NCBI GenBank assembly: GCA_017538105.1
Contig: JAFYJN010000040.1
Location: 1-64,000, forward strand
Source of the DNA: Prevotella sp.
Lineage (GTDB): Bacteria; Bacteroidota; Bacteroidia; Bacteroidales; Bacteroidaceae
Reading direction: 5' to 3'
DNA: 64,000 nt
Made by a program: the position numbers and the translations under genes. Under the pieces are notes generated by a model, which saw nothing but the letters and a program-made list of their open reading frames with translations, did no database searches and had not been told where the DNA came from. Numbering within the stretch: position 1 is the stretch's first letter; the number at the start of each line of letters is the position of its first letter. Of the stretch, positions 7,500-64,000 are shown in pieces.

Positions 7500-8261
7500 T
7501 TATTTTCCGGGCATTCTACTGTTGAGGAAGCTTTCAAAAGCTGGTTTATACTGGTCGGTGACGCGGATGATTTCATCGCCGATATAAAGGCATAGGTTAC
7601 GGTCGACGGTTCTTATTTTATCGAGTGCGACAACGAACGACCTGTTTACTCTCATGAAAGACTGGTTGGGCAGCGACTGCTCCACCGCTTTCATCGTAAG
7701 GTGAGTGACAACCGGCCTTCGTTCTCCCTCGAGGTGAAACATCACATAATCTTTCATTCCCTCGACGAAAAGTATTTTTTCGAACTCCACCTTTCTCCAT
7801 TCTCCATCAACACGCAGGAACAAACTGTCCGCATTTTTTGTTTCAGCGACATTATCCGCTGTTCCCGCCGCAGATTGCTGTTCAAGGCTGATTGCCTGAG
7901 CATCGAACCAATCTTTAGCCCTTTGCACAGCCTGTAGGAATTTGGCATAACGAATGGGTTTGAGCAGATAGTCGATAGCCGCGAATTCGTAGCTATCGAA
8001 AGCGAACTCCTTAAAAGCCGTGGTAAAAATGATTTTTGTTTGTCCATTCAAGGAACGCGCCAATTCCAAGCCATTGACATCCGGCATCTGTATGTCGAGG
8101 AAGAGCAAGTCGACCTTATTTTGTGCCAGAAAAGCAGAAGCCTCGATAGGGTCGGTGAATGCTTTCTTGTAATCGAGGAATTCTGTGCGTTGAACGAATG
8201 TTTCCAACAATTGCACCGCCAACGGTTCATCATCGACGATAACACATGACAGTTTTTTCAT
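7500..8261 (-). CDS. LytTR-family response regulator
   Basis: A 253-residue two-domain regulator. The N-terminal receiver has the acidic pair VDDE (D10, D11), phospho-acceptor D56 in LLFLDIQMPD, and the later T-A-F-K segment. The C-terminal half is a LytTR DNA-binding domain (SLFLRVDGEWRKVEFEKILF, then FMRVNRSFVVALDKIRTVD). Its start overlaps the sensor kinase gene by 4 bp, so it is the cognate partner of that kinase. Target genes are not apparent here; such pairs often act on membrane or envelope genes. Family call is secure, the role unknown. Confidence 0.92.
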   Translation of the reverse strand: MKKLSCVIVDDEPLAVQLLETFVQRTEFLDYKKAFTDPIEASAFLAQNKVDLLFLDIQMPDVNGLELARSLNGQTKIIFTTAFKEFAFDSYEFAAIDYLLKPIRYAKFLQAVQRAKDWFDAQAISLEQQSAAGTADNVAETKNADSLFLRVDGEWRKVEFEKILFVEGMKDYVMFHLEGERRPVVTHLTMKAVEQSLPNQSFMRVNRSFVVALDKIRTVDRNLCLYIGDEIIRVTDQYKPAFESFLNSRMPGK

Positions 8262-9277
8262 AGCGCAAGTGATATTTTCACGTGGTAAACATCATTATCT
8301 GTCGATTGTTCCCATTCATGCCGTTTTGGATAGAGCAGTTGGAGCCGACGTCGTGTATTCTCCACCCCTATTCCCGACCCGCTTCTGTCTTGTTCATCTT
8401 TCGGGAAGTTCGAGTTGTCGCATTCGAAGACTACCGTTTTCTCGTCACCATTCATCGTCAAGTGAACGAACGATTCTTTTCCGCTTGCCACACCATGTTT
8501 AAACGCATTCTCCACGAGGGCCACAAAGAGCAACGGAGCCACCATCGGATGTCCTTCGATTTTGAAGTCGGTCTTTATGTCGACGAGCTTAGAACAGCGC
8601 AGTTGCATGAGCGACACATAGTTTTCTAGGAACCCCACCTCATCCTCAAGAGGCACGAGGTCTTTGTCGGTGTCGTACATGGCATACCTGAGCAGGTCGC
8701 TAAGTTGAGCAATGCTATCCTGTGCCTTGTCGGGATCAATTTGTGTGAGACTTGAAATGTTGTTCAGCGTGTTAAACAAGAAGTGTGGATTGAGTTGGTT
8801 TTTGAGCCATGCCAATTCCGCCTCTTTGTTCTGTCGTTGTTTCTCCTCCATCTCTAACCTGAGAGCATGTGTCCTAATCACATATCTGACCGCCACGGCA
8901 GCGAGAGCCACAAGCAGGTCGAAAAGAATAATGATAGACCAATTGGCATATGAGAATTGTTTGAAAGGAGTGGGAACACGGGACATATCCGCCGTGAACA
9001 TCCAAAAATTGACAATCAAGATAAGAAGCGCATTTGCCAGGAAAAACAGCCAATATCTTTTTCTGAAGAACAGGAAAGGAGTGAGCAGGTAGAAGTTGAT
9101 GAAGTAGATGACGCCAAGTGGCACGAACCATCCCAGGCTGATGCGAAGAATGATGGCCGAGTTGGAGCTCCCTTTGCTCATCAGGGTTACGAACAACAAC
9201 GGCATGACGATGATCAGGCCTACAACGAACAATTGGACGAGGAACATCAAGCCCCCTCTCTTAGTTAACTTCTTCAT
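8258..9277 (-). CDS. LytS/YehU-type sensor histidine kinase
   Basis: A 339-residue membrane kinase. Four hydrophobic segments lie at about residues 11-31, 42-68, 76-94 and 113-135, followed by a short coiled coil and the His_kinase motif QLNPHFLFNTLNNI with phospho-accepting H165. A HATPase domain follows (LVENAFKHG as the N box, SGSGIGVENTRRRL as the G box). No periplasmic sensor domain is visible, so sensing probably occurs in the membrane. The -7 box TATTTTTG (minus strand, 9282-9289) ends only 4 nt before the ATG, so the message may be leaderless. Confidence 0.92.
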   Translation of the reverse strand: MKKLTKRGGLMFLVQLFVVGLIIVMPLLFVTLMSKGSSNSAIILRISLGWFVPLGVIYFINFYLLTPFLFFRKRYWLFFLANALLILIVNFWMFTADMSRVPTPFKQFSYANWSIIILFDLLVALAAVAVRYVIRTHALRLEMEEKQRQNKEAELAWLKNQLNPHFLFNTLNNISSLTQIDPDKAQDSIAQLSDLLRYAMYDTDKDLVPLEDEVGFLENYVSLMQLRCSKLVDIKTDFKIEGHPMVAPLLFVALVENAFKHGVASGKESFVHLTMNGDEKTVVFECDNSNFPKDEQDRSGSGIGVENTRRRLQLLYPKRHEWEQSTDNDVYHVKISLAL

Positions 9278-9363
9278 GTTGCAAAAATAACAAAATATTT
9301 TAAATAATGAATATATTTCTACTAATTATGAACATTTGCAACCAAGTTGCATGCATCTATCCA

Positions 9364-9371
9364 TATCTTTG
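9364..9371 (+). promoter_or_regulatory. -7 promoter box TATCTTTG
   Basis: TAnnTTTG match 24 bp upstream of the P-type ATPase ATG. No TTTG at 19-20 bp; a TTTG at 9335-9338 is 25 bp away. Confidence 0.5.
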
Positions 9372-9395
9372 CACCCAGAAACAAACAGAAGCATT

Positions 9396-11378
9396 ATGTC
9401 ACACCATCATCACCATCATCACGAGGAGACATCGCACGAATGTCATTGCCATGAGCATCATGAGCAACATCATCACGAACATGAACACGGCGGCGTCAAG
9501 AAGCAGTTGACCCTCATTGTTGCCACCACCCTATTGCTCCTTGTGGCCATCTTCATTGAGAAACATTACGAGCTACCGCTTTGGCAACTTTTATTGATAT
9601 ATTTAGTGCCATATCTTCTCATTGGCCATGATACTTTAAAAGAAGCCGTAGAGGGCGTTATCGCCGGGGATGCATTCAATGAGCATTTTTTGATGTCAGT
9701 AGCCACGACAGGCGCCCTAGCCATCGGATTTCTACCCGGAGCCGAAACGGAATTCCCTGAAGCCGTCTTTGTCATGTTGTTTTTTCAGGTAGGCGAACTA
9801 TTTGAAGGCTATGCAGAAGGCAAGAGTCGTGCCAGCATTGCCCACTTGATGGACATCCGTCCCGACGAGGCCCACGTTGAACGTTCCGGAAAAGTGGAGA
9901 GCGTCTCTCCTGACACCGTTACCATTGGCGAAATATTGGTGGTGAAACCCGGCGAGAAAGTACCCCTTGACGGTGTTGTCGTAGAAGGTCGTTCCTCCCT
10001 CAACACCGTGGCTCTTACCGGAGAGAGCGCCCCTCGCGATGTGGAAGAAGATGACGAGGTCATCTCCGGCTGCATCAATCTCACAGGTGTGCTCAAGATA
10101 CGCACCACGAAAAGCTTTGGCGAGAGCACCGTGTCGAAGATTCTCGAGTTGGTGGAGCACGCCACCGAGAACAAGTCGAAGAGTGAGAGTTTCATCACCC
10201 GTTTTGCGAGGTATTATACCCCCATTGTCGTTTTCGCCGCCCTGTTCATAGCCTTTATCCCCCCACTTTTCAGCGGTTCTTTTGGTACCGCTTTCCCCAA
10301 CTGGCTCTATCGTGCCCTGATGTTCCTCATCGTTTCCTGTCCATGTGCCCTGGTCATCAGTATCCCCCTCACATTTTTCGGAGGTATTGGAGGTGCTTCG
10401 CGTCAAGGCATCCTCATCAAGGGATCCAATTATATGGACACGCTCTCGAAATTAAACACTGTCGTTTTCGACAAGACCGGCACCTTGACCCATGGTCAGT
10501 TTGTTGTCGAGGCCGTCCATCCCGAGCGTTGCGACGAGCGTCATCTGCTCCATCTGGCCGCCCATGTAGAACATTACTCCACCCACCCTATCGCCATAGT
10601 CCTTCGCGATGCCTTTCCCGAAGCCGCCACTGACGGTTGTGCCGTCAGTGACATCGAAGAAGTGTCGGGTCAGGGCATACGAGCCATCGTAGGTGGTCAG
10701 CGTGTCTGTGTAGGCAACACCAAGCTGATGGCATCCGAGGGAGCCGTTTGGCACGACTGTCATCTTTCTGGCACCATTATCCACGTGTCGATTGACGGAT
10801 CATACGCAGGCCATATCGTCATCAACGATGCCATCAAGACTGATAGCTTGAGCGCCATTGAATCTTTGAAGTCGTTAGGTGTTGAACGTGTGGTGATGCT
10901 TACCGGCGACCAAGAGCACGTGGCAGCCCATGTAGCCCACCAACTCCATATCGATGAGTATCACTCCGAGCTGTTACCCACAGACAAGGCCTCGCATGTG
11001 GAGAAGCTCCTTGCCGAATGTCATGCCAACAATCGTTCATTAGCCTTTGTAGGCGATGGCATCAACGACGCTCCCGTCTTAGCCCTTTCCGACGTAGGCA
11101 TCGCCATGGGCGGCCTGGGCAGTGACGCAGCCATAGAAGCCTCAGACGTTGTCATTATGGATGACTATCCCACGAAAGTGTCGTTAGCCATGAAGATAGC
11201 GCGTCGAACACTCGGTATTGCCTGGGAGAATGTGATTTTCGCCATTGGCGTGAAGGTTGCCGTTCTATTGTTAGCCGTCTTCGGTCTTGGCACATTGTGG
11301 ATGGCCGTATTTGCCGACGTAGGGGTCACCGTCTTGGCCGTGTTGAATGCCATTCGCGCTTTAAGGATGTCACACTAA
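9396..11378 (+). CDS. His-rich heavy-metal P1B-type ATPase
   Basis: About 660 residues from ATG 9396. The order is standard for a metal-exporting P-type ATPase: actuator TGESAP, membrane motif SCPCALV (Cys-Pro-Cys metal site), phosphorylation site DKTGTLT, hinge GDGINDAP. The CPC motif fits Zn2+/Cd2+/Pb2+ (ZntA/CadA) or Cu+ pumps. There is no N-terminal HMA (MxCxxC) domain; instead the first 32 residues are almost half histidine, with a few Cys and Glu, which favours zinc or cobalt-like metals over copper. Single gene, divergent from the sensor kinase; no metal regulator is adjacent. Ion specificity is inference. Confidence 0.88.
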   Translation: MSHHHHHHHEETSHECHCHEHHEQHHHEHEHGGVKKQLTLIVATTLLLLVAIFIEKHYELPLWQLLLIYLVPYLLIGHDTLKEAVEGVIAGDAFNEHFLMSVATTGALAIGFLPGAETEFPEAVFVMLFFQVGELFEGYAEGKSRASIAHLMDIRPDEAHVERSGKVESVSPDTVTIGEILVVKPGEKVPLDGVVVEGRSSLNTVALTGESAPRDVEEDDEVISGCINLTGVLKIRTTKSFGESTVSKILELVEHATENKSKSESFITRFARYYTPIVVFAALFIAFIPPLFSGSFGTAFPNWLYRALMFLIVSCPCALVISIPLTFFGGIGGASRQGILIKGSNYMDTLSKLNTVVFDKTGTLTHGQFVVEAVHPERCDERHLLHLAAHVEHYSTHPIAIVLRDAFPEAATDGCAVSDIEEVSGQGIRAIVGGQRVCVGNTKLMASEGAVWHDCHLSGTIIHVSIDGSYAGHIVINDAIKTDSLSAIESLKSLGVERVVMLTGDQEHVAAHVAHQLHIDEYHSELLPTDKASHVEKLLAECHANNRSLAFVGDGINDAPVLALSDVGIAMGGLGSDAAIEASDVVIMDDYPTKVSLAMKIARRTLGIAWENVIFAIGVKVAVLLLAVFGLGTLWMAVFADVGVTVLAVLNAIRALRMSH

Positions 11379-12603: not shown

Positions 12604-12810
12604 AAATTTCAAAAAGATTAAAAGATTATAAAATTAAAAGATTAAAAAAGTAAGAAAAGAGGTGGGGGCTGTTTTTATACATACCACCCCTACTTGAAGT
12701 TTTTGTCCGCTTAAGGACTAAATCGCCTTTGGAAAAATGAGGGGATGAAGCCTCCCCCTTACCCCCTCCAAAAGAGGGGGTAAACTGATTGAAAGAAAGA
12801 AGGTAGAATT
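12604..12810. repeat. Composite intergenic repeat, copy 1
   Basis: A run of AAAAGATT/ATTAAAAG octamers (12604-12660) is followed by AGAGGTGGGGG, then ATACCACCCCT, ACTTGAAG, TTTTGTCCGCTTAAGGACTA and ATCGCCTTTGG (12680-12733), a hairpin CCCCCTC/GAGGGGG (12762-12780) and ACTGATTGA. The same blocks in the same order occur at 42416-42790. No gene fits here. Copies probably belong to a dispersed, non-coding repeat family. Confidence 0.7.
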
Positions 12811-12831: not shown

Positions 12832-13422
12832 TTATTGGTATTCAATAACCGCTTTTTGGGTGATTGCCCAACGACCGTTTTTGAGAATTGCTTTTCCGGG
12901 TTGACAAGAATAACGTGTTGATTTCGCCGTTGAGAATGTGCATGCCCTTTCAATGTATTTTTTAGAGCTGTTGTTCGCTTTTGACAGTTGTGTTTCGCTG
13001 ATTGTCTTGAACGTGAATTCCGCCTCCGTTGGAGATAGAAGGTGGAATTCATAATACGTATTTTCCGACGCCACCATTTCACGCTCCGCATCATTAAACG
13101 ACCCATCCTCTGCCGGCCACCTGAAATAGAACACATCTTTTTTTGTTTCCGGTTGCATTTGTTCGACAGGTCTTTTCGGTGCGGGGTTGTCCGTGAAGAA
13201 TATCCGTTGTTCTATGGACGCTATCCTGTCGTCGATATTTTGCAAGTCGATCTGTCGTTGTTTTGCCGTTTTCTCAACATAGTCTTTCATGTCTTTCTTC
13301 GTGGCGAAATGGTGGTCAGCATGTTTATCCGCCTCGTCGTTAGAACGGTTTACGGACTTCAGTCGCCATTCTACATATGCGATGGCTGCCACGAATAGAA
13401 TCAGAGAGATGACGATGGACAT
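12832..13422 (-). CDS. Membrane-anchored coiled-coil protein, last gene of the tubulin/actin cassette
   Basis: A 196-residue protein with one N-terminal transmembrane helix (SIVISLILFVAAIAYVEW), then a charged helical stretch of about 60 residues that looks like a coiled coil (TKKDMKDYVEKTAKQRQIDL), and a C-terminal soluble domain of about 100 residues. I recognise no domain. It is the last gene of the five-gene minus-strand operon, 64 bp after the actin-like gene; the spacer carries ATTAAAAG repeats (about 13428-13475). Position and topology suggest that it links the cassette to the inner membrane. Confidence 0.7.
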   Translation of the reverse strand: MSIVISLILFVAAIAYVEWRLKSVNRSNDEADKHADHHFATKKDMKDYVEKTAKQRQIDLQNIDDRIASIEQRIFFTDNPAPKRPVEQMQPETKKDVFYFRWPAEDGSFNDAEREMVASENTYYEFHLLSPTEAEFTFKTISETQLSKANNSSKKYIERACTFSTAKSTRYSCQPGKAILKNGRWAITQKAVIEYQ

Positions 13423-13427
13423 GGAAA

Positions 13428-13476
13428 ATTAAAAGATTACAAGATTAAAAGATTAAAAGATGAGCAGATTAAAATA
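13428..13476. repeat. ATTAAAAG octamer repeat
   Basis: Five to six imperfect ATTAAAAG/AAAAGATT units between the last two genes of the cassette; same unit as at 12604, 42416, 49440, 57055 and 63975. Confidence 0.6.
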
Positions 13477-13486
13477 CAAATGATAT

Positions 13487-16400
13487 TTATGACATGCGAT
13501 TCGTAGAAATATGGTATGCCAATCTGGCGATTCCTCCAGTGAGCGGAATGAAGAAGAGCGAGTCGTTGATTTCCGGGTTCTCTTCATTGGCCATGACTTC
13601 CTTTCGGAGCGCCACCACCTTGTTGAAATCCTGTTCCGCCTTTTCGGTGAGCACCTTTTTGAACTCGCCAAAATCCCTTTCGTTTATCACCCCGAAATAT
13701 TTGGCGAAGCTGTATTTGCTGTTCAGTCCAAAGAAATAATCAACAAAGTGTTCATATCCATCCAGCACCTCACTACGAACCTGGTCATTGATGTCGCCAT
13801 AACGAGGGTTATCCACTTTGTCGAGTGTCGCCGAACCCGTTTGGAACAACGTGATAGCCTCCACGTCGTCAACCACGAAGCGCTGTCTCATATTCAGTCC
13901 TCCCTTGCAAGTAATTTCCTTGGGATTGTCGACAAGTTTCAGTTCCACCCTACCCTCATCGCCCATGATATCGTTGAAGATGATCCTCGCCATGTTCTGC
14001 AACACCTCGACACCCCCGATAAGCGTCAGCACTTTCGACGCCGTTCCACTGACTGTGACATACGCCGGCGAAGCCAGTTTCTTTGTCTTGAGTAGGTGAG
14101 CCGCATAGAAGATCTCCGCGGCATAGAAGAGCAGCAATACGACCCTCATCGACTGGTCGGCCCTCAATTCCTCGCTGAAGGACACCCCTTTTCCCGTCAT
14201 GCGCGGATTGCTGTCAAGCGAATAAAGGAACGACACAAATTCTGCGCTCGACCTCTTTGACTTGGCATACACATCGCTCACCCCCGCTATGTCGTGCAAC
14301 AAATTGTCGAAAAGCGGAGCGAATGCACGCATGAATCCGTTGTATTCCGTAGCCCTTCCGAGGAAATCACCGTAGATGCTGTTACCAGCGAATCTCACTG
14401 ATGAGATAGCCACCGCCTTGTTTCCTTGGTGGTAAACCACAAAGTCGGTTGTCCCTCCACCGATGTCGAGCGATATCACCGGTCGCGACTCCGCATCCAC
14501 ATCTTCGTTCATGGTGTAGTAATAATATGGAGCCAACGACTCTGGAACTTTCATGAGCCGTGCCCCTTGTGGTGCTATCAGTTTTTTGGACAGTTTGTTC
14601 CACGCCCCCTCGAGCGATGCTATCTGATAAGGTTGCATGCACACAGGATAGAACCAAGTGATGCCTGTACGCGACAATGCCCCACCCCCCATCAGCACCT
14701 TGTTGCGTATGATGAGCAGCAACTCCTCGAAATAGGCCTCGACGAGTATGTTATCATTTTTCGCATCGGCCCACTTCAGGTCAGTGCGAGTGTTGTTATA
14801 ATCATACGTGTCCTCCTTCTCATAATGGAACCCCACGTTATAGTCGGCCAGTGTGAGCACATCACGTCCCACCACATTATGTCCCTCGCAGAAACACAGG
14901 TTTGTTCGCATGGGGAACCGCGCCACCTCACCCGGAGCAATGACCAACGGCAGAAACTCCTGCATGAACGCCTGCGTCGGTCCTCCATAGAACGACTCCA
15001 GTCCCTGTTCATCCATCTGTCGTACCGCCTGTTCCGACAGAGAGTTGAGTGCAAGCACCTGTGTTTGTTCATGATCCACCGTTAGTGGCCGCGTCATATC
15101 ATCATCGCTGGTACGGTATTCCACGTGTGTATTCGTAGTTCCGAAGTCGACAGCAAAGTCAAACACCTTATTACCCTGTTTGATCTCCTTGAAGCGCGGG
15201 ATGAGCACACCCTGTTCGTTGCCATTGCCAATGACAATATAGTCGTATTCTTCGTCGAGGCAGAAATAACGCGACGAGAGGAAATGCTCCGCCTTATCAG
15301 CCCTATCTACCCTTACCGTCGTCAGTGGGCTGTCGGAGAGGTGCTTATACGGCAATACCGTGTATTGATATTGTTCCTTCCGGAAGCCCTCCGTATCTTC
15401 ATCGACGAGGTAGATACGCTGAGGCGTAGCCACCCCCTCGTCCATAATATGGAACGATGGGAAGAGGAACAGGTCAACCCTTGCCTCTATTACCGGGAAT
15501 AACCCCTGGTTATTGAACGATGTTGCAGACAATGGTGTATAATCACGCCGCAGTGTAATATACCTACCTTTTTGCACAGGTATGCGCAAGACAGCCCTCA
15601 CGGAGCCATCGGCCATATCTGACAGTTCGCATACCGGTTCAGCGCTGTTTCCGGCATACCCCATCACGGTCTGCACTTTGAGGTATTTGAAGATAAGCGG
15701 TTTGAGAGGAAGCACATAATGGCATGCGTCGCTTGCCACCCTCCCTTCCTTATACAGCGCATTGACGAAAGCTTTGTCGTTGACGGGGAATGGCAGTTTG
15801 AGCAGGGCCGGTTGGAACACATCGTCGGCCGTAAGATACGGGTATGGTGAAGAGTCAAACGGCAGCGTTCTGTCCTCCATCGGTCTGCTGTCAGCATTTG
15901 GCGCGCATAGCCGCGGCATCCAATCCACCGTGGTATACCTCATCTGTTTTTCGAAATATGGTTCCTCTGGAAGTACAAGCGGTATCTTTTCGTCGCCCCC
16001 ATTGTCTTCAGCCAGGATACGGAAATCGCTCTCTTGTCCAATCCTGTTCCCTTTTGCCGTCATGAGGAGCCATCCTCCCGGCAGCAAGATCTGTGACGCT
16101 CCCACTGTCAGCGGTTGATAAAGCGATTGGTACATCGCTGGCGGCATGGCATTTACCTGATTTTTAAATTCCGTGTCGTCGTCCATTCTAAAGCACTCGT
16201 CAACGTATGCATAGAAATCATTGTAGAGTGCATTGAATCCCGGCTGTTTCGCCAATAAATAGACGAAGAGTTTGAAATCCCTATCACGATTGCACAATGC
16301 CCTGAACGACCCATCTTCATCAGGCTGGAACGCCTCGTGGTAATTACCCAACCAGACACCCTTGACATAAGACAGATCGTTAGGAGAAGCCAGCGTTACC

Positions 16401-16915
16401 GATGTGGGCGACGTTGCCCCAACGATATTGAGTTGTCCTACGGCCCCACGTCCCACAAAATTGAGCATATACATCTGCTGCATTTCGTCGAAGTGGAACG
16501 CCTTTGCATCCTGTGACAAGAACAGCTGCAAAGTTTCCGCTATCGCCTTATGTTCAGGTGTCCCGTCGGAAGCCAGCTGCTGCAACGAGTTCATCTTATC
16601 CCATGCCACTACTTGGAAATACTTTTCGTACTTCGTCTTATACCCGAAAAAGATCTCCAACACATCCAGTGCATTTGCAACCAATTTATGGTATATGGTG
16701 CTACCAAGCACATTTCCCCGTTGGGCGCAGTAGGCAAAAGCTGTTTTAGTTAGTTCCAGTCCTGCGAAAGGAGTTGGAATAGACGTTATGGGCAGCGAAG
16801 CTTTTGCCCCATTAGGGTCGTCAATAGCCTCGATATCCTTGGCTCCCACCTGAGCCGTTTCCTGCCATCCGTCGATGGTGTCAGCCCCCTTATGGAATCT
16901 GAAGACGTAAGCCAT
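13487..16915 (-). CDS. Giant protein with C-terminal actin/Hsp70-like ATPase domain
   Basis: A 1142-residue protein. The first 580 residues match nothing I recognise. The C-terminal half has the two phosphate loops of the actin/Hsp70 fold: DFAVDFGTTNTHVEY (about 587-600) and ISLDIGGGTTDFVVYH (about 814-829), 230 residues apart, followed by a GGEV/GG-I-type end segment (FFIPLTGGIARLAYH). The architecture recalls SrfB-like virulence-associated proteins, but the size and N-terminus differ and I cannot confirm homology. It starts 8 bp from the tubulin-like gene in the same operon, so the two NTPases are probably made together. No signal peptide or transmembrane helix; cytoplasmic. Confidence 0.82.
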   Translation of the reverse strand: MAYVFRFHKGADTIDGWQETAQVGAKDIEAIDDPNGAKASLPITSIPTPFAGLELTKTAFAYCAQRGNVLGSTIYHKLVANALDVLEIFFGYKTKYEKYFQVVAWDKMNSLQQLASDGTPEHKAIAETLQLFLSQDAKAFHFDEMQQMYMLNFVGRGAVGQLNIVGATSPTSVTLASPNDLSYVKGVWLGNYHEAFQPDEDGSFRALCNRDRDFKLFVYLLAKQPGFNALYNDFYAYVDECFRMDDDTEFKNQVNAMPPAMYQSLYQPLTVGASQILLPGGWLLMTAKGNRIGQESDFRILAEDNGGDEKIPLVLPEEPYFEKQMRYTTVDWMPRLCAPNADSRPMEDRTLPFDSSPYPYLTADDVFQPALLKLPFPVNDKAFVNALYKEGRVASDACHYVLPLKPLIFKYLKVQTVMGYAGNSAEPVCELSDMADGSVRAVLRIPVQKGRYITLRRDYTPLSATSFNNQGLFPVIEARVDLFLFPSFHIMDEGVATPQRIYLVDEDTEGFRKEQYQYTVLPYKHLSDSPLTTVRVDRADKAEHFLSSRYFCLDEEYDYIVIGNGNEQGVLIPRFKEIKQGNKVFDFAVDFGTTNTHVEYRTSDDDMTRPLTVDHEQTQVLALNSLSEQAVRQMDEQGLESFYGGPTQAFMQEFLPLVIAPGEVARFPMRTNLCFCEGHNVVGRDVLTLADYNVGFHYEKEDTYDYNNTRTDLKWADAKNDNILVEAYFEELLLIIRNKVLMGGGALSRTGITWFYPVCMQPYQIASLEGAWNKLSKKLIAPQGARLMKVPESLAPYYYYTMNEDVDAESRPVISLDIGGGTTDFVVYHQGNKAVAISSVRFAGNSIYGDFLGRATEYNGFMRAFAPLFDNLLHDIAGVSDVYAKSKRSSAEFVSFLYSLDSNPRMTGKGVSFSEELRADQSMRVVLLLFYAAEIFYAAHLLKTKKLASPAYVTVSGTASKVLTLIGGVEVLQNMARIIFNDIMGDEGRVELKLVDNPKEITCKGGLNMRQRFVVDDVEAITLFQTGSATLDKVDNPRYGDINDQVRSEVLDGYEHFVDYFFGLNSKYSFAKYFGVINERDFGEFKKVLTEKAEQDFNKVVALRKEVMANEENPEINDSLFFIPLTGGIARLAYHISTNRMS

Positions 16916-16922
16916 GTGTTTA

Positions 16923-18380
16923 TCAGAAGTTGTATTTACGTTTTAAGACATTGTTGATGGCCGTTTCATGAACGGTGATGAAGAAGTTGTAGGCATCCAG
17001 TCCTTTTATTTTTTTCATCGACACGTCGGAAATTTCCGTATCTATAGCAGGGAACCCTTGCAGGTTTTTCCCCAGCCATTTTTCAATCACCGATGTTTTC
17101 TTGGGATGGATGTGGTTGACCGTATCGAAGATGTCCGCTTCAGCCGGATAAAGCTCAAAAGGTTGGAAAGAGCGTTGGTTGTCCGACATTTCCTTGAGCC
17201 AATGGGCCCTGTATTCATCAAGGAATTGTCCTATGTCGATGAAGAACGGGTCGGAGAACGACACCCCCTTCATCTGTTGTGTCTTCGTCCAAGCATATTT
17301 CTTGGTATCCTGGAAATGTTCAAGATAGAATCTGGCAAAGATGAAGAAACTCACCATTTCCTTTCCCATGACAGCGAATGTGGCCGGTCCAAGGTCAGGC
17401 AGTGTGATGGGGTTGAGGTCTTCCCGCACGGCAAATTCGCGAAACGACGTATGCCCTTTCGTTTGATGTCGTATGTCAGACCTTGCGAAATCGACGATAC
17501 CCAATGCCGCCGCCATCTCCACGAAGTGTGCATTGTTTTTCTGTTCCGTTGCCCCTTCGACGTTGTTATATCTGTTTTTGATGACGTCGCACATATAATA
17601 GAGAGCATCGACATCAAGGTTACCGATATAATATTTCAATGCCGCTTTTGTTTTCGACATGAACGTTTCCATTTTTATTTGGCTTTCCTTGTCGTCCTTT
17701 AGTCCAAAATAAGGCAGCACGGTTACCGCCCCTATGGGAGCGTGGGCAATAGCCGCCGAATTGGGCATATCGAGAGACTCCGCCTCGCGCATTGTCTTCT
17801 GCAACAAAGGGAATCCCGCAGCCCCTGTCCCTCCGAAAATACTGGAGATGATGAAGATGCGGTCGCCTGTTTGGAAGTGCTGCATCAGTTCGATTAGCGA
17901 CTTGGTGTTTTGCGGGTCGTTGAGCACGATGGATCCCATGTTCGGGTTCCCCTTGAAGCCAACATCAAGCGGAGTCTGGAGATTCTGGTCGGAGAAAAGC
18001 AGCGAAAGCAGTGCCTGATTGGGGTCGGGCTGTCCTTCCGTAGTAAAACGATTGAAGGCGATATAGTCGGAGAACTTCATGTTCGCCACATTATTGAGAT
18101 GCAGTCGGAAGTTCGTGCCCATATCATCAATATCGACATGGAAATATCCCTTTTTCTCTGGTCTATTGTCGAACCGGAGGTGCTGTCTTATCTTCCGATA
18201 GAGCTGCATGATGCCTATGGTGCGGCTTAAGTCGCCATTAGAACTGTCCGGGTCGATGATTACCGGCACCACGGTATCGATGTCATTTCCCAGGGAAACG
18301 CCGGAGGCTAGCAGCATGGTAAGTGAACGCAGCACCCTTGCCCCCGTCCCTCCAATGCCATAGATATATAATTTACTCAT
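16923..18380 (-). CDS. Tubulin/FtsZ-like GTPase (Tubulin_2-like)
   Basis: A 485-residue protein with two hallmarks of the tubulin fold: a glycine-rich N-terminal loop YIYGIGGTGARVLRS (residues 6-19) and the tubulin signature-like loop FGGTGAAGFP (residues 182-191). It differs from cell-division FtsZ in length and in the rest of the sequence, so it belongs with tubulin-like proteins of unknown role (Pfam Tubulin_2 type). It has no signal or membrane segment. In the operon it sits between the small membrane protein (26 bp upstream) and the actin-like giant (7 bp downstream). The predicted activity is GTP-dependent assembly or switching; substrate and partners are inferred from context. Confidence 0.78.
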   Translation of the reverse strand: MSKLYIYGIGGTGARVLRSLTMLLASGVSLGNDIDTVVPVIIDPDSSNGDLSRTIGIMQLYRKIRQHLRFDNRPEKKGYFHVDIDDMGTNFRLHLNNVANMKFSDYIAFNRFTTEGQPDPNQALLSLLFSDQNLQTPLDVGFKGNPNMGSIVLNDPQNTKSLIELMQHFQTGDRIFIISSIFGGTGAAGFPLLQKTMREAESLDMPNSAAIAHAPIGAVTVLPYFGLKDDKESQIKMETFMSKTKAALKYYIGNLDVDALYYMCDVIKNRYNNVEGATEQKNNAHFVEMAAALGIVDFARSDIRHQTKGHTSFREFAVREDLNPITLPDLGPATFAVMGKEMVSFFIFARFYLEHFQDTKKYAWTKTQQMKGVSFSDPFFIDIGQFLDEYRAHWLKEMSDNQRSFQPFELYPAEADIFDTVNHIHPKKTSVIEKWLGKNLQGFPAIDTEISDVSMKKIKGLDAYNFFITVHETAINNVLKRKYNF

Positions 18381-18406
18381 TATCGGTAGCTATTGTTATA
18401 GTAGAA

Positions 18407-18823
18407 TCAGAACGGAATGTTACGACACCGGCTGCTGAACGATTTGAATATGATGGAGAATACGGCGAAGAATACCGCCGCCCACGCGAAGACAATGACT
18501 CCGAAGGTCACATAGTCCTCGGCACCGATATCGGCATCGTGAATATTCTGCATGAAGATATATCCATGCAGTTTTGTCCTTGCTATGAGAAGTGAAATAA
18601 CAGTAGATGCGACAGCTGTCAGTCCCCCAATCATCACCCATTTACTGTTTTTAGCGAGCAATATATGGTCGAGGATGATGTAATAGACGAATGCCACGGC
18701 CACAGGCAGCAGCAATGTCACGTAAAAAACCGAGCCGTATACATCGGCTTGGTACATATACTTTGAAAAATCGCCTAAATAGGCACCTCCGAAGAGTTCG
18801 AATATATCTGTTGTAAAATCCAT
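18407..18823 (-). CDS. Small multi-pass membrane protein of the cassette
   Basis: 138 residues with three clear hydrophobic helices: VFYVTLLLPVAVAFVYYIIL (about 31-50), a second at about 60-80 (WVMIGGLTAVASTVISLLIA) and a third at about 103-123 (VTFGVIVFAWAAVFFAVFSI). No domain recognised. It starts 31 bp after the vWA-like gene and ends 27 bp before the tubulin-like gene; it is probably the membrane anchor or channel part of the same machine. Confidence 0.75.
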   Translation of the reverse strand: MDFTTDIFELFGGAYLGDFSKYMYQADVYGSVFYVTLLLPVAVAFVYYIILDHILLAKNSKWVMIGGLTAVASTVISLLIARTKLHGYIFMQNIHDADIGAEDYVTFGVIVFAWAAVFFAVFSIIFKSFSSRCRNIPF

Positions 18824-18853
18824 CTGTTAGGGAATTGGGGAAAAAATCAGTTT

Positions 18854-20155
18854 TCAATCGTAGTGAGCGACTCGAATTTTAAGCCGGAAAATGTCTTTAT
18901 CGTTACCGCCTTTCACGTTGTGGAACGCTCCGAAGATGCCTTCCACCATTTCATATAGCGCATACGATTTTGTTGGTGGCGGATACCCCATGAGGTGTTT
19001 ATTGTAGCTGCAATCACTCACCCACTGTGGTATGCGGTTTTTGAGCACCAGCGTTATCTCCGGGGCGTAGCTGTCATTTCCCGTACCTATCTGGACGCAG
19101 ATTGGCCTACGGAAGAAATCACATTCCGTGAATTTTGACTTGTCGTTGATATCGATAAGTCGGTATTGAGACGGCAACACCTCATAATTGGCAGAATCGA
19201 GCACATATTCCCTGTCGGCGAATAGCTGTTCGACACCCAATCCCACGGCGAACCTCAAGGATGTAGCCTCTTGGTCAGTAGTGAAGTTATGTATGTTCAG
19301 GCCGTCATGTTCCGGTTGTATGCGCAGAGCATTGGTAAATCCCGAAGTGAACACCCTTGCCGTTTGGTTGTCAAGGTCCCATGTCTTTTCCGATGACAAC
19401 ATGTACTTATGTTTCAGCCCAGGCATTCCCGTTGCAGTATTTTCAAGTTCGAGGTGTGCATTCAAGTCAGCCAATCTGTCTTTGTCGCCCATAAAAATGA
19501 TGTAATAGGGTCGTTTCCCATAGTATGGCATACCTATGTTTCCTTCATAGTGCGTCCCTTGGAACATCGACTCCATCTGAAGGATAATCACGCCAAATTC
19601 CTTTTTATTGTCTTGCGCCCTTTTTATGGCTTTCATAAACGTGCCCGTTGTTGCGCTTGAAGCCCCTGACAACAAATTGCCCACATTATCGACATCATAG
19701 ACGCAGTCGCTGACAAGCACACTGACCGTATCGCCATTTGTACGGTCAAGGATGACTTTGAAAATTTTGTTGAGGTCAGTGTTTCCCGTATGTCCCACTT
19801 TCATGCTTGTGGTATTCAAATGAAGCACGAAATTATTTAGGTCCTGGCATATTGGCGCGTCATATATTTGGTCGTTTACGAAGAAAAGTTTCGTGTCATC
19901 GTAATATCCATCCGCTTTAGCCAGAAGATGCCCAAGTGCATTTTTGAATTGAGTATTGAGTGTTACGAATCCGTCCATAGAACCCGAGTTCTCCATGTAT
20001 ATACGCACAATAGGACTTCCCGCCACCATCTGTGCGGTGTCGGGAGGGAGGAAATGTCCATCGGTGGCCCTTCTGTCAGACTTATGTCCAATGAGATAAA
20101 GCGCCAATCCCACGACTACTATCATGAGCAGGAGTGCCCAAGACTTACGTTGCAT
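18854..20155 (-). CDS. Membrane-anchored vWA-like protein with atypical metal site
   Basis: 433 residues. One N-terminal transmembrane helix (WALLLMIVVVGLALYLIGH) puts the rest outside the cytoplasm. From residue 50 it resembles a von Willebrand A domain: RIYMENSGSMDGF replaces the usual DxSxS metal site (Asp is absent, Glu-Asn precede Ser-Gly-Ser), GHTGNTDLNKIF could supply the Thr, and VSVLVSDCVYDVD the second Asp. The C-terminal half (about 300-433) is of unknown type. First gene of the five-gene operon, with a consensus promoter 26 bp upstream of its ATG. Periplasmic adhesive or sensor role is inference. Confidence 0.72.
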   Translation of the reverse strand: MQRKSWALLLMIVVVGLALYLIGHKSDRRATDGHFLPPDTAQMVAGSPIVRIYMENSGSMDGFVTLNTQFKNALGHLLAKADGYYDDTKLFFVNDQIYDAPICQDLNNFVLHLNTTSMKVGHTGNTDLNKIFKVILDRTNGDTVSVLVSDCVYDVDNVGNLLSGASSATTGTFMKAIKRAQDNKKEFGVIILQMESMFQGTHYEGNIGMPYYGKRPYYIIFMGDKDRLADLNAHLELENTATGMPGLKHKYMLSSEKTWDLDNQTARVFTSGFTNALRIQPEHDGLNIHNFTTDQEATSLRFAVGLGVEQLFADREYVLDSANYEVLPSQYRLIDINDKSKFTECDFFRRPICVQIGTGNDSYAPEITLVLKNRIPQWVSDCSYNKHLMGYPPPTKSYALYEMVEGIFGAFHNVKGGNDKDIFRLKIRVAHYD

Positions 20156-20180
20156 GTGTTAAATAATTGTTCGAACGGTG

Positions 20181-20212
20181 CAAATATACGCAAAAAAAAT
20201 GAATTGCCCAAA
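20181..20212 (-). promoter_or_regulatory. Promoter of the vWA/tubulin/actin cassette
   Basis: On the minus strand TTTG (20209-20212), 20 bp, TATATTTG (20181-20188): full consensus. It ends 25 bp before the ATG at 20155 and separates the cassette from the TonB receptor gene upstream, which has its own terminator. Confidence 0.82.
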
Positions 20213-42370: not shown

Positions 42371-42415
42371 AAAGGGGGAGTTTTTTTTGGAAAAGGAGGG
42401 GAAAGCCACCCCAGG

Positions 42416-42790
42416 GAAGATTAAAAAATTAAAAGATTAAAAGACTTAAAAAGAGGTTGGAACATGGAAGATTATAAAATGAAAAAATTAGAAGATTAAA
42501 AGATAAATAAAAAAGAGGTTGGGAAATGGAAGATTATATAATTAAAAGATTAAAAGATTAAAAAAGAGGTTGGGAAATGGAAGATTATAAAATTAAAAGA
42601 TTAAAAGATTAAAAAAGAGGTTGGGACATTATTTGACATACCACCCCTGACTTGAAGATTTTGTCCGCTTAAGGACTATATCGCCTTTGGGAAAGAAGGG
42701 GAAAGGCAGATTGAGTAGAAAAGGAGGGGAAAAGGGGAAAAGGAGGGGGGACTGATTGAGAAGAGGGAAAGGTAGATTGATTTGGAAAAG
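42416..42790. repeat. Composite intergenic repeat, copy 2, with tandem units
   Basis: ATTAAAAG octamers alternate with AAAAAGAGGTTGGG(AAATGGAAGATTATA) modules four times (42420-42625), then the blocks shared with 12604-12810: ATACCACCCCT, ACTTGAAG, TTTTGTCCGCTTAAGGACTA, ATCGCCTTTGG, and ACTGATTGA. Purine-rich GGAAAAGGAGGGG units fill the rest. No coding frame. Confidence 0.7.
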
Positions 42791-57047: not shown

Positions 57048-57194
57048 AGGAAAAATAAAAGATTATAAGATTAAAAGATAAAAAAAAGAGTGAGAATGAA
57101 TGTATCCATCTAAAATACTTAGGAATGACATCTTCTTCAACAATGATTCAACAATGAATTAGAGGGTGAGGTGGCGGCGACCAGATAACTACAC

Positions 57195-63974: not shown

Positions 63975-64000
63975 AGATTAAAGGATTAAAAGATTAAAAA
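63975..64000. repeat. ATTAAAAG octamer repeat at right edge
   Basis: Three units of the ATTAAAAG type continue past the window end. Confidence 0.5.

Follow-up and report, generated by a model that had tools for sequence, protein, structure and literature searches.

A conserved Prevotella operon pairing tubulin-like and actin-like proteins with membrane-associated partners

In a 64,000-nucleotide stretch of Prevotella sp. DNA (the window, meaning the whole of the analyzed stretch), five adjacent minus-strand genes bring together a putative tubulin-superfamily protein, a giant ATPase of the predicted actin superfamily, a vWA-like protein, and two further proteins with membrane segments. Comparisons with related loci indicate that the five genes form one conserved unit, and the view that this operon encodes a predicted envelope-anchored, accessory, and mobile nucleoside triphosphatase (NTPase) complex is well supported. 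As for its purpose, a role in conflicts with phages or competitors is tentatively favored here. The five genes and the promoter match that precedes them are as follows.

18854..20155, minus strand: vWA-like protein, 433 residues, with an N-terminal membrane anchor (sequence, alignments, profile comparison)
18407..18823, minus strand: three-helix membrane protein, 138 residues, with an S-x-x-C-x-x-x-P motif near its C terminus
16923..18380, minus strand: tubulin-like GTPase-type protein, 485 residues, predicted kin of Tubulin_2 (PF13809)
13487..16915, minus strand: giant putative actin/Hsp70-superfamily ATPase, 1142 residues
12832..13422, minus strand: fifth protein, 196 residues, with a membrane segment, a putative coiled-coil middle part (so described in the initial annotation), and a conserved C-terminal domain (G...W....KA)
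20181..20212, minus strand: promoter match TTTG-N20-TATATTTG (pattern search)

Conservation of the five-gene unit

All five open reading frames (ORFs) between positions 12832 and 20155 are intact, and the gaps that separate them measure 30, 26, 7, and 64 bp. An initial annotation of this DNA had described five minus-strand genes behind one promoter with gaps of 8 to 64 bp; this layout is borne out, including the upper bound, whereas the smallest gap is 7 bp. The promoter pattern, which we take to be the Bacteroidetes-type consensus, has eight matches on the two strands of the window compared to 0.79 expected from shuffled sequences. For the five genes, comparison with G019, the closest relative sampled, gives ratios of nonsynonymous to synonymous divergence (dN/dS) of 0.016-0.050, at dS values of 1.7-2.3 that are near saturation; dS was not computable for another carrier of the operon, G009.

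The family was first sampled in 60 related genomes, including that of the window, 35 others of the genus, and 24 more distant members of the order. The ATPase was matched in 11 of the 60, counting a short match in a 487-residue ORF of G053, and the operon is carried by eight of the 35 other genomes of the genus and by one of the 24 more distant genomes. In this first comparison, the gene order vWA, three-helix, tubulin-like, actin-like was kept in seven of nine fetched loci, and the fifth protein was recognized in three of those loci and later, with the use of profiles, in more. The lowest identities to the window proteins are 29-39% for the tubulin-like protein, 25-32% for the ATPase, 22-27% for the vWA-like and three-helix proteins, and 17-18% for the fifth protein. 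From GTDB contigs, at least 17 loci were recovered, at least 14 of them with the family proper: Prevotella (three), Hymenobacter (five), Bacteroides luti, Christiangramia, Solirubrum, Pedobacter, Rudanella, and an unclassified member of the Bacteroidia. The gene set is conserved together across genera, a result that the initial annotation had named as support, with the core order present in Prevotella, Bacteroides, Christiangramia, and Hymenobacter. Outlying hits include a distant tubulin-actin pair in a member of the Defluviitaleaceae (L047; 2e-43 and 1.6e-19) and a 6.4-kb contig (L048) in which an 839-residue protein matches the ATPase profile (2.4e-19) next to a weak match to the fifth family, with no match to the tubulin profile. 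Another candidate, L046, was rejected as a family locus, being an ordinary FtsZ gene beside an FtsA-sized ORF.

In a table of 42 loci, from which L030, L046, and L048 were excluded and in which L099 duplicates L044 and L165 nearly duplicates L164, 41 loci pair the tubulin-like gene with the ATPase gene, 37 have a vWA-like gene nearby on the same strand, 31 have a three-helix gene recognized by profile, and 30 have the fifth gene. The figure of 41 out of 42 is not an unbiased rate: it was mostly through the ATPase that the loci came to light, and many of them also contributed to the profiles used.

A fairer test is a search with the tubulin profile of 392 genomes of the phylum, the window's own included. 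Thirteen genomes are matched, and in 12 of them the giant ATPase gene is adjacent. The ATPase profile matches 116 of the 392, but in 104 of them all matched ORFs are 262-632 residues long, with the match around the second phosphate loop, and are probably FtsA and its kin. Long ATPase ORFs (at least 1132 residues; that of G150 is cut by a contig end) occur in 12 genomes, all of them tubulin carriers, and each adjoins the tubulin-like gene. The ATPase matches of G243, G343, and G368 are weak (1.5e-6 to 4.6e-5), and in these genomes the protein is identified by its size and place. The thirteenth tubulin carrier (G401; locus L096, G401:C38:30000-49000) has vWA and three-helix genes but no ATPase gene; its tubulin-like gene is interrupted by an in-frame stop, and its ZorA/ZorB-like ORFs are short. 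This copy is a broken or decayed operon, in a genome that is 13% contaminated. The vWA profile matches 16 of the 392 genomes. Ten of these matches are strong (E ≤ 1.1e-69), every one beside a tubulin-like gene, and the other six are weak and partial, one belonging to the operon of G368 and five to genomes with no tubulin match. In this sample, the families do not occur independently of one another; independent occurrence would have spoken against the initial annotation by its own criteria.

Furthermore, correlations between the families' matrices of pairwise identity range from 0.84 to 0.96, a level reached in none of 2000 permutations for each of the ten pairs, and to which the shared ancestry of the hosts contributes. 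Chance adjacency of the five genes is excluded by the conserved order and the co-occurrence.

Family assignments of the five proteins

None of the five proteins passes a curated Pfam or NCBIfam threshold, and their matches in PHROGs are weak throughout. SrfB was considered as a candidate and rejected, Pfam giving no SrfB match at E ≤ 1. The assignments draw on profile comparisons and on the following motifs.

18342..18353, minus strand: T1-type loop GGTG of the tubulin-like protein, residues 10-13 (GGTGAR at 10; alignments)
17817..17834, minus strand: T4-type loop GGTGAA of the tubulin-like protein, residues 183-188 (GGTG[ASG] in 39 of 39 sequences)
15128..15148, minus strand: phosphate-1 loop DFGTTNT of the ATPase, residues 590-596 (alignments)
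14444..14467, minus strand: phosphate-2 loop DIGGGTTD of the ATPase, residues 817-824 (alignments, PDB search)
14033..14050, minus strand: adenosine-type motif SGTASK of the ATPase, residues 956-961 (alignment)
19976..19993, minus strand: MIDAS-like motif ENSGSM of the vWA-like protein, residues 55-60 (alignments)

Classification of the 485-residue protein as a divergent member of the tubulin superfamily, near FtsZl1 and Tubulin_2, is supported by several lines of sequence evidence. The T4 signature loop is present in all 39 tubulin-like sequences, and in 37 of them GGTG also lies among the first 60 residues, a loop that does not vary in alignments of 10 and of 15 sequences. A tubulin-type protein with a GGTGAAG loop had originally been proposed, and a GGTGAA loop is indeed found at residue 183, with profiles lending support to the assignment. 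The window protein falls short of the Pfam cut-offs for both Tubulin (PF00091; 17 versus 33 bits) and Tubulin_2 (19.9 versus 27 bits), but the latter is exceeded by a relative from Gloeothece that is encoded in a similar operon (40.8 versus 27 bits). Profile comparison of the tubulin-like family gives 83% against four Pfam-verified Tubulin_2 proteins, three of which are near-identical, compared to 1.1% against FtsZ of Bacteroidetes and at most 1.6% for unrelated pairs. Because of these values and the Gloeothece match, the protein appears to belong to a divergent branch near FtsZl1 and not to classical FtsZ. Matches of the profile in PDB are to FtsZ-type proteins and are weak (best 0.038), and a KorB_C match of the protein also stays below its cut-off (E 0.059; 13.7 versus 25 bits).

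The T7 catalytic loop of tubulin and FtsZ has the motif N-x-D-x-x-D. This loop is not conserved in the family, since the pattern occurs after T4 in only four of the 39 sequences, and GTP-driven polymerization therefore stays a proposal. The initial annotation had envisioned a membrane-linked polymer machine for envelope organization, secretion, or defense; a membrane-linked NTPase unit is in keeping with the present results, whereas the polymer portion of that idea finds no backing in the T7 loop.

Membership of the 1142-residue protein in the actin superfamily is likewise supported. Failure of the predicted tubulin and actin folds was the initial annotation's other ground for refutation, and both assignments have support from sequence profiles. 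Both actin-type phosphate loops lie where they had been placed earlier, and strict patterns for phosphate-1 and phosphate-2 are satisfied by 34 and 35 of 39 sequences, respectively. The adenosine motif is found by pattern in 28 of 39 and aligns with an FtsA-like motif in the profile comparison. When a profile of 16 ATPase sequences was searched against PDB at E ≤ 1, the 14 matches were to MreB, actin, FtsA, and exopolyphosphatase, the best being MreB (9.7e-5). Pfam matches to FtsA and MreB, located at the second phosphate loop, are weak and miss the curated cut-offs. For the C-terminal half of the ATPase against FtsA-sized proteins, profile-profile comparison gives 97.4%, a result that is partly circular, because the references were gathered by the ATPase profile; the PDB result is free of this problem. 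Relaxed alignment of the same kind places both phosphate loops, the adenosine-type motif, and a connect-2-like stretch (PKEITCKGG) collinear with the FtsA-sized proteins. The protein thus appears to share with the FtsA/MreB superfamily these four motifs in the same order, but differs in having about 580 additional N-terminal residues, for which no relative was detected in the comparisons made. Upstream of a distant copy of the operon, a 900-residue protein (L029:10-2709) with no Pfam match at E ≤ 0.01 contains a stretch, VDYGSSAIVCKF, that resembles an actin-type phosphate-1 loop.

The weakest of the family assignments is that of the 433-residue protein, which may be vWA-like. Its motif has the form E-x-S-G-S, whereas three cyanobacterial relatives have a canonical type of metal ion-dependent adhesion site (MIDAS) motif (DGSGSM or DASGSM; D-x-S-G-S). 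D150 is invariant in alignments of eight and 22 sequences, and profile comparison gives 51% against Pfam-verified vWA proteins, compared to 0.1% for unrelated pairs. The Pfam vWA models match none of 22 family members, and a PDB search with the family returned nothing of note. The vWA identity first suggested for this protein accordingly has the motif, the invariant aspartate, and the profile comparison in its favor, but not a Pfam match. Of 35 family sequences, 28 carry a lipobox-like signal; a plain N-terminal helix is seen instead in the window protein, the two relatives closest to it, and L024. Because most relatives carry such a lipoprotein-like signal, the vWA-like domain is predicted to lie outside the cytoplasm, which agrees with the outward orientation previously assigned.

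The three-helix membrane protein (18407-18823) is present as had been described, and its family profile, which finds members in the 31 loci noted above, is escaped by the three-helix proteins of cyanobacterial plasmids. The fifth protein had also been listed as a membrane protein. This holds for the window and for most loci, but a crude hydropathy count finds no membrane segment in six of the 30 loci that have it (L023, L025, L026, L038, L101, and L168).

Mobility, motor-like partners, and flanking genes

The window operon adjoins the gene for what is presumably a TonB-type receptor, beyond which lie a putative zinc-ribbon membrane protein and a U32 peptidase (names that we assign from sequence). 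G019 has the operon at the same place. In G012 an operon directly follows the zinc-ribbon gene, with identities of 25-37% versus 53% for the flanks, and in G009 it lies about 4.8 kb past that gene, after two other ORFs, with identities of 50-73% versus 54-60% for the flanks. Among ten corresponding stretches from non-carriers, seven have the U32, zinc-ribbon, and receptor genes, three have the U32 and zinc-ribbon genes only, and none has the operon.

The core order is also found on cyanobacterial plasmids and candidate viral contigs. Five cyanobacterial plasmid records match the tubulin-like protein, and the three plasmid loci examined each have vWA-like, three-helix, tubulin-like, and ATPase genes, the vWA-like gene of the Gloeothece locus being on the opposite strand. 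In Prevotella sp. oral taxon 299 the copy resides on a 1.77-Mb record filed as a plasmid. Three IMG/VR contigs carry the operon, and these may be mobile elements of bacteria. A phage origin was considered and rejected, as the tubulin-like protein has no match in 50,697 phage records, with the three candidate viral contigs as the carriers of the operon. Two of the IMG/VR contigs (L164 and L165; 103.6 and 58.3 kb, with different sample numbers) have nearly identical operons with ZorA/ZorB-like genes, which in L164 are followed by a gene for a 500-residue protein with DUF4357.

A ZorA/MotA-like and ZorB/MotB-like gene pair is present in 13 distinct loci (15 of 42 when two duplicates are counted), usually 3' of the fifth gene or in its place, but not beside the window copy. 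One of the 13 is the broken locus L096, and in another, L095, the second gene is 5' of the vWA gene and the first gene is weak. The first protein has about three helices and a long tail, whereas the second has one helix, with the sequence S-Y-x-D-L-M-T, which we take to be of the MotB type, and an OmpA-like C-terminal region. The aspartate of this helix is kept in at least 90% of ten aligned sequences, and PADLOC ZorB models match four of four second-gene proteins (best 1.1e-11). Another genome of the genus, G035, has two ZorB-like matches, the second of which (L157, G035:C27:94680-95363) is located away from the known operon. In nine other loci the place of the motor is taken by a one-helix protein (cluster c6) that looks zinc-ribbon-like by eye in Prevotella-type members and matches below threshold by Pfam in L034. 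The pair of proteins in this position in L041 (499 and 262 residues) has no match in PADLOC or Pfam.

A few loci have hydrolase genes downstream, forming clusters of four trypsin-like, two nuclease-like, and three aspartyl-protease-like members. The one member checked per cluster matched Trypsin_2, SNase, and aspartyl protease, respectively, above the Pfam cut-off, and lipobox-like cysteines are visible by eye in two of four, two of two, and three of three members. An L,D-transpeptidase is encoded in L100 and a DnaJ-domain protein in L033. A scan of 137 flanking proteins from 24 loci was made without a control set, and so no defense-island enrichment is claimed. Among the families listed (25 of 129 defense-type and 25 of 145 Pfam families), TerD and SNase have three members each, Trypsin_2 has four, and the ZorD1 and DpdE helicase models have one each. 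One of the flanking proteins, if the same protein is meant in both cases, strongly matches the ZorD1 and DpdE models (down to 9e-148). A motif check for helicases in this set found one P-loop/DExH protein (L027:1871-3457), which may be the ZorD1/DpdE match.

Two further features accompany the window operon.

12740..12759, minus strand: terminator-like hairpin 3' of the fifth gene; terminator-like sites in the window are at chance level (nine versus 8.3 expected in shuffles)
13428..13474, no strand assigned: 8-bp-period repeat ATTAAAAG/CTTTTAAT, which occupies most of the spacer separating genes four and five

This repeat is dispersed, with 44 short matches genome-wide, and AT-rich repeats of the ATTAAAAG type recur in the window at 12612-12653, 42415-42626 (about four copies of a 51-bp unit), 57056-57084, and 63975-63999. 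Elsewhere in the window, what we take from its sequence to be a metal-type P-ATPase with a very His-rich N terminus (9336-11378) adjoins a presumed gene pair for a LytTR regulator and a sensor kinase (7500-9277).

Possible roles and relation to described systems

Our preferred but tentative reading, which we consider nearly as apt to be right as wrong, is that this accessory, horizontally moved operon would provide a membrane-anchored envelope NTPase complex, most likely a conflict system for defense against phages or competitors. A defense role is suggested by the mobility and patchiness of the operon, the ZorAB-like pair, and the secreted hydrolases. In the scheme that forms part of this reading, the vWA-like protein would sense an envelope event in a metal-dependent manner, and the three-helix protein would relay the signal inward. 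Driven by GTP and ATP, the two NTPases might then relay and amplify it by changing their conformation or assembly. The output would be an action on the envelope, exerted through motor torque where ZorAB-like genes exist and through hydrolases where these are present. The window copy is a minimal five-gene form that lacks the motor, the proposed outputs being tied to loci with a motor or hydrolases. A bolder and rather doubtful version posits a still unnamed class of mobile defense machine, in which a proton- or ion-driven rotary motor of the ZorAB type, the tubulin-like GTPase, and the giant actin-like ATPase would be coupled, through the inner membrane, to a vWA sensor facing outward. Hydrolases of the periplasm would serve as interchangeable effectors, and the class would have spread through Bacteroidota and onto cyanobacterial plasmids.

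Systems comparable to the operon are the GTPase-centered conflict systems with tubulins, HSP70, and vWA proteins described by Kaur et al. 2020 (PMC7159879). In the portions of that paper drawn on here, the GAP1-N2 systems resemble the operon in having tubulin homologs, extracellular vWA proteins, HSP70 chaperones, and a link to the membrane, and assembly-based effectors are proposed for them. They differ in being built on a GTPase and GAP1, whereas no GTPase family is recognized in the five window proteins, among which GAP1 was not specifically searched for. Their tubulin and HSP70 themes are described there as non-overlapping, the former restricted to and the latter mostly found in firmicutes and actinobacteria, whereas tubulin and actin types are adjacent here.

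Several observations weigh against a conflict system. Patchiness fits other accessory traits as well, and a conserved spot holds for four carriers only, because in five of the nine genus carriers the operon and the U32 marker gene are on different contigs. At E ≤ 1, four of the five proteins have no match in PADLOC, and the fifth alone matches weakly (NsnC, 0.0018). The first motor-like protein misses the Pfam MotA_ExbB cut-off in L033 (21.8 versus 22.9 bits) and has no such match in L164; PADLOC ZorA models match three of four first-gene proteins weakly (best 5e-6), with that of L098 unmatched. A ZorB search found no match in the window's genome, where ZorA was not searched for. Hydrolases are confined to few loci, and in the flank scan the defense-type models match scattered proteins while the Pfam families form a broad mix. 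In the comparison of the ATPase with FtsA-sized proteins, the reference set had no Pfam check.

The main rival, which strikes us as unlikely but serious, is a machine for membrane remodeling or envelope organization in normal physiology, with an NTPase scaffold at the membrane and motor or hydrolases reshaping the envelope. Makarova and Koonin 2010 (PMC2875224) described membrane-linked operons of FtsZl1 with vWA proteins, GTPases, kinases, and OmpA proteins, and predicted a role in membrane remodeling; the union of membrane proteins, a vWA-like protein, and a tubulin-like protein in one operon fits that description. As far as the parts of that paper used here go, the two kinds of operon share a partly recognizable tubulin fold, a neighboring vWA protein (outward in some), membrane proteins, and OmpA-type partners in some genomes, and the alignment figure includes Bacteroides caccae. 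They differ in that the FtsZl1 type protein has 1051 residues and an extended coiled coil, as well as a helical C-terminal domain, compared to 485 residues here, and that FtsZl1 is often accompanied by a GTPase or kinase, whereas Pfam at E ≤ 1 finds no such family in the five proteins, the flanks being outside that scan. An actin-superfamily ATPase is not named for the FtsZl1 operons in those parts, but here accompanies the tubulin-like gene; the same text mentions actin only in other contexts and does not mention MotA, MotB, phage, or Hsp70. The L,D-transpeptidase of one locus and the OmpA/MotB-type partners of others also agree with remodeling. A role in normal physiology is harder to reconcile with the lack of a match in 27 of the 35 other genus genomes sampled, some of which are incomplete, with the 379 of 392 phylum genomes unmatched by the tubulin profile, and with the plasmid-borne copies.

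A machine for signaling, transport, or secretion, in which an outer sensor and a chaperone-like ATPase would assemble or export substrates, seems improbable to us. It echoes what a reviewer of the 2010 paper suggested for FtsZl1 in a comment published alongside it (PMC2875224, among the parts used here) and could accommodate the lipoprotein-like vWA proteins and the secreted hydrolases of some loci, as well as the DnaJ-domain protein of one, but Pfam recognizes no translocon or substrate family in the five proteins.

TubZRC and ParMRC are DNA segregation cassettes with tubulin- and actin-like filaments. A cassette of this kind, with filaments moving DNA, would account for the two cytoskeleton-type NTPases and the plasmid-borne copies, but it is very hard to credit, given three membrane-associated members, one of them outward, the chromosomal copies, and the lack of any DNA-binding family at a meaningful score in the five proteins (KorB_C being below its cut-off). 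A strict Zorya-type system whose other parts are lost or unrecognized is just as far-fetched: the 13 distinct loci do have a long-tailed ZorA-like protein and a ZorB-like protein with its MotB-type helix and OmpA-like region, but the pair is missing from the window operon, the idea already fails for the window copy in a genome with no ZorB-like match, and the genes that recur as partners belong to the vWA, tubulin, and actin families, with ZorC, ZorD, and ZorE absent from the recurrent gene clusters. ZorAB is a 5:2 motor (Mariano et al. 2025; PMC11890865), and the consulted portions of that paper do not name vWA, tubulin, or actin families as components of Zorya.

The initial annotation had regarded the gene combination as a pattern not yet described in Bacteroidetes. 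With regard to tubulin and actin types side by side this view is in keeping with the sections cited here, but membrane operons with tubulin and vWA proteins (2010, PMC2875224) and conflict systems with tubulin, HSP70, and vWA proteins (2020, PMC7159879) were outlined earlier, as the sections cited here show. Among the papers listed in searches of the open-licence PMC literature, none was seen to describe an operon that unites tubulin- and actin-like proteins with vWA and ZorAB. A study of early evolution (PMC9871819) sets Tubulin_2 proteins apart as sparse and divergent, at least in the part referred to here.

An FtsZl1/vWA membrane machine was thus already proposed in 2010 from gene context alone (PMC2875224, in the parts used here). 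What is added here is a compact five-gene version that pairs a tubulin-like protein with a putative actin-superfamily ATPase, to which 13 distinct relatives add a ZorAB-like motor. Cytoskeleton-type NTPases of bacteria are thereby linked, in a way that can be tested, with ion-driven rotary motors and with envelope sensing, and the carriers include cultured named strains.

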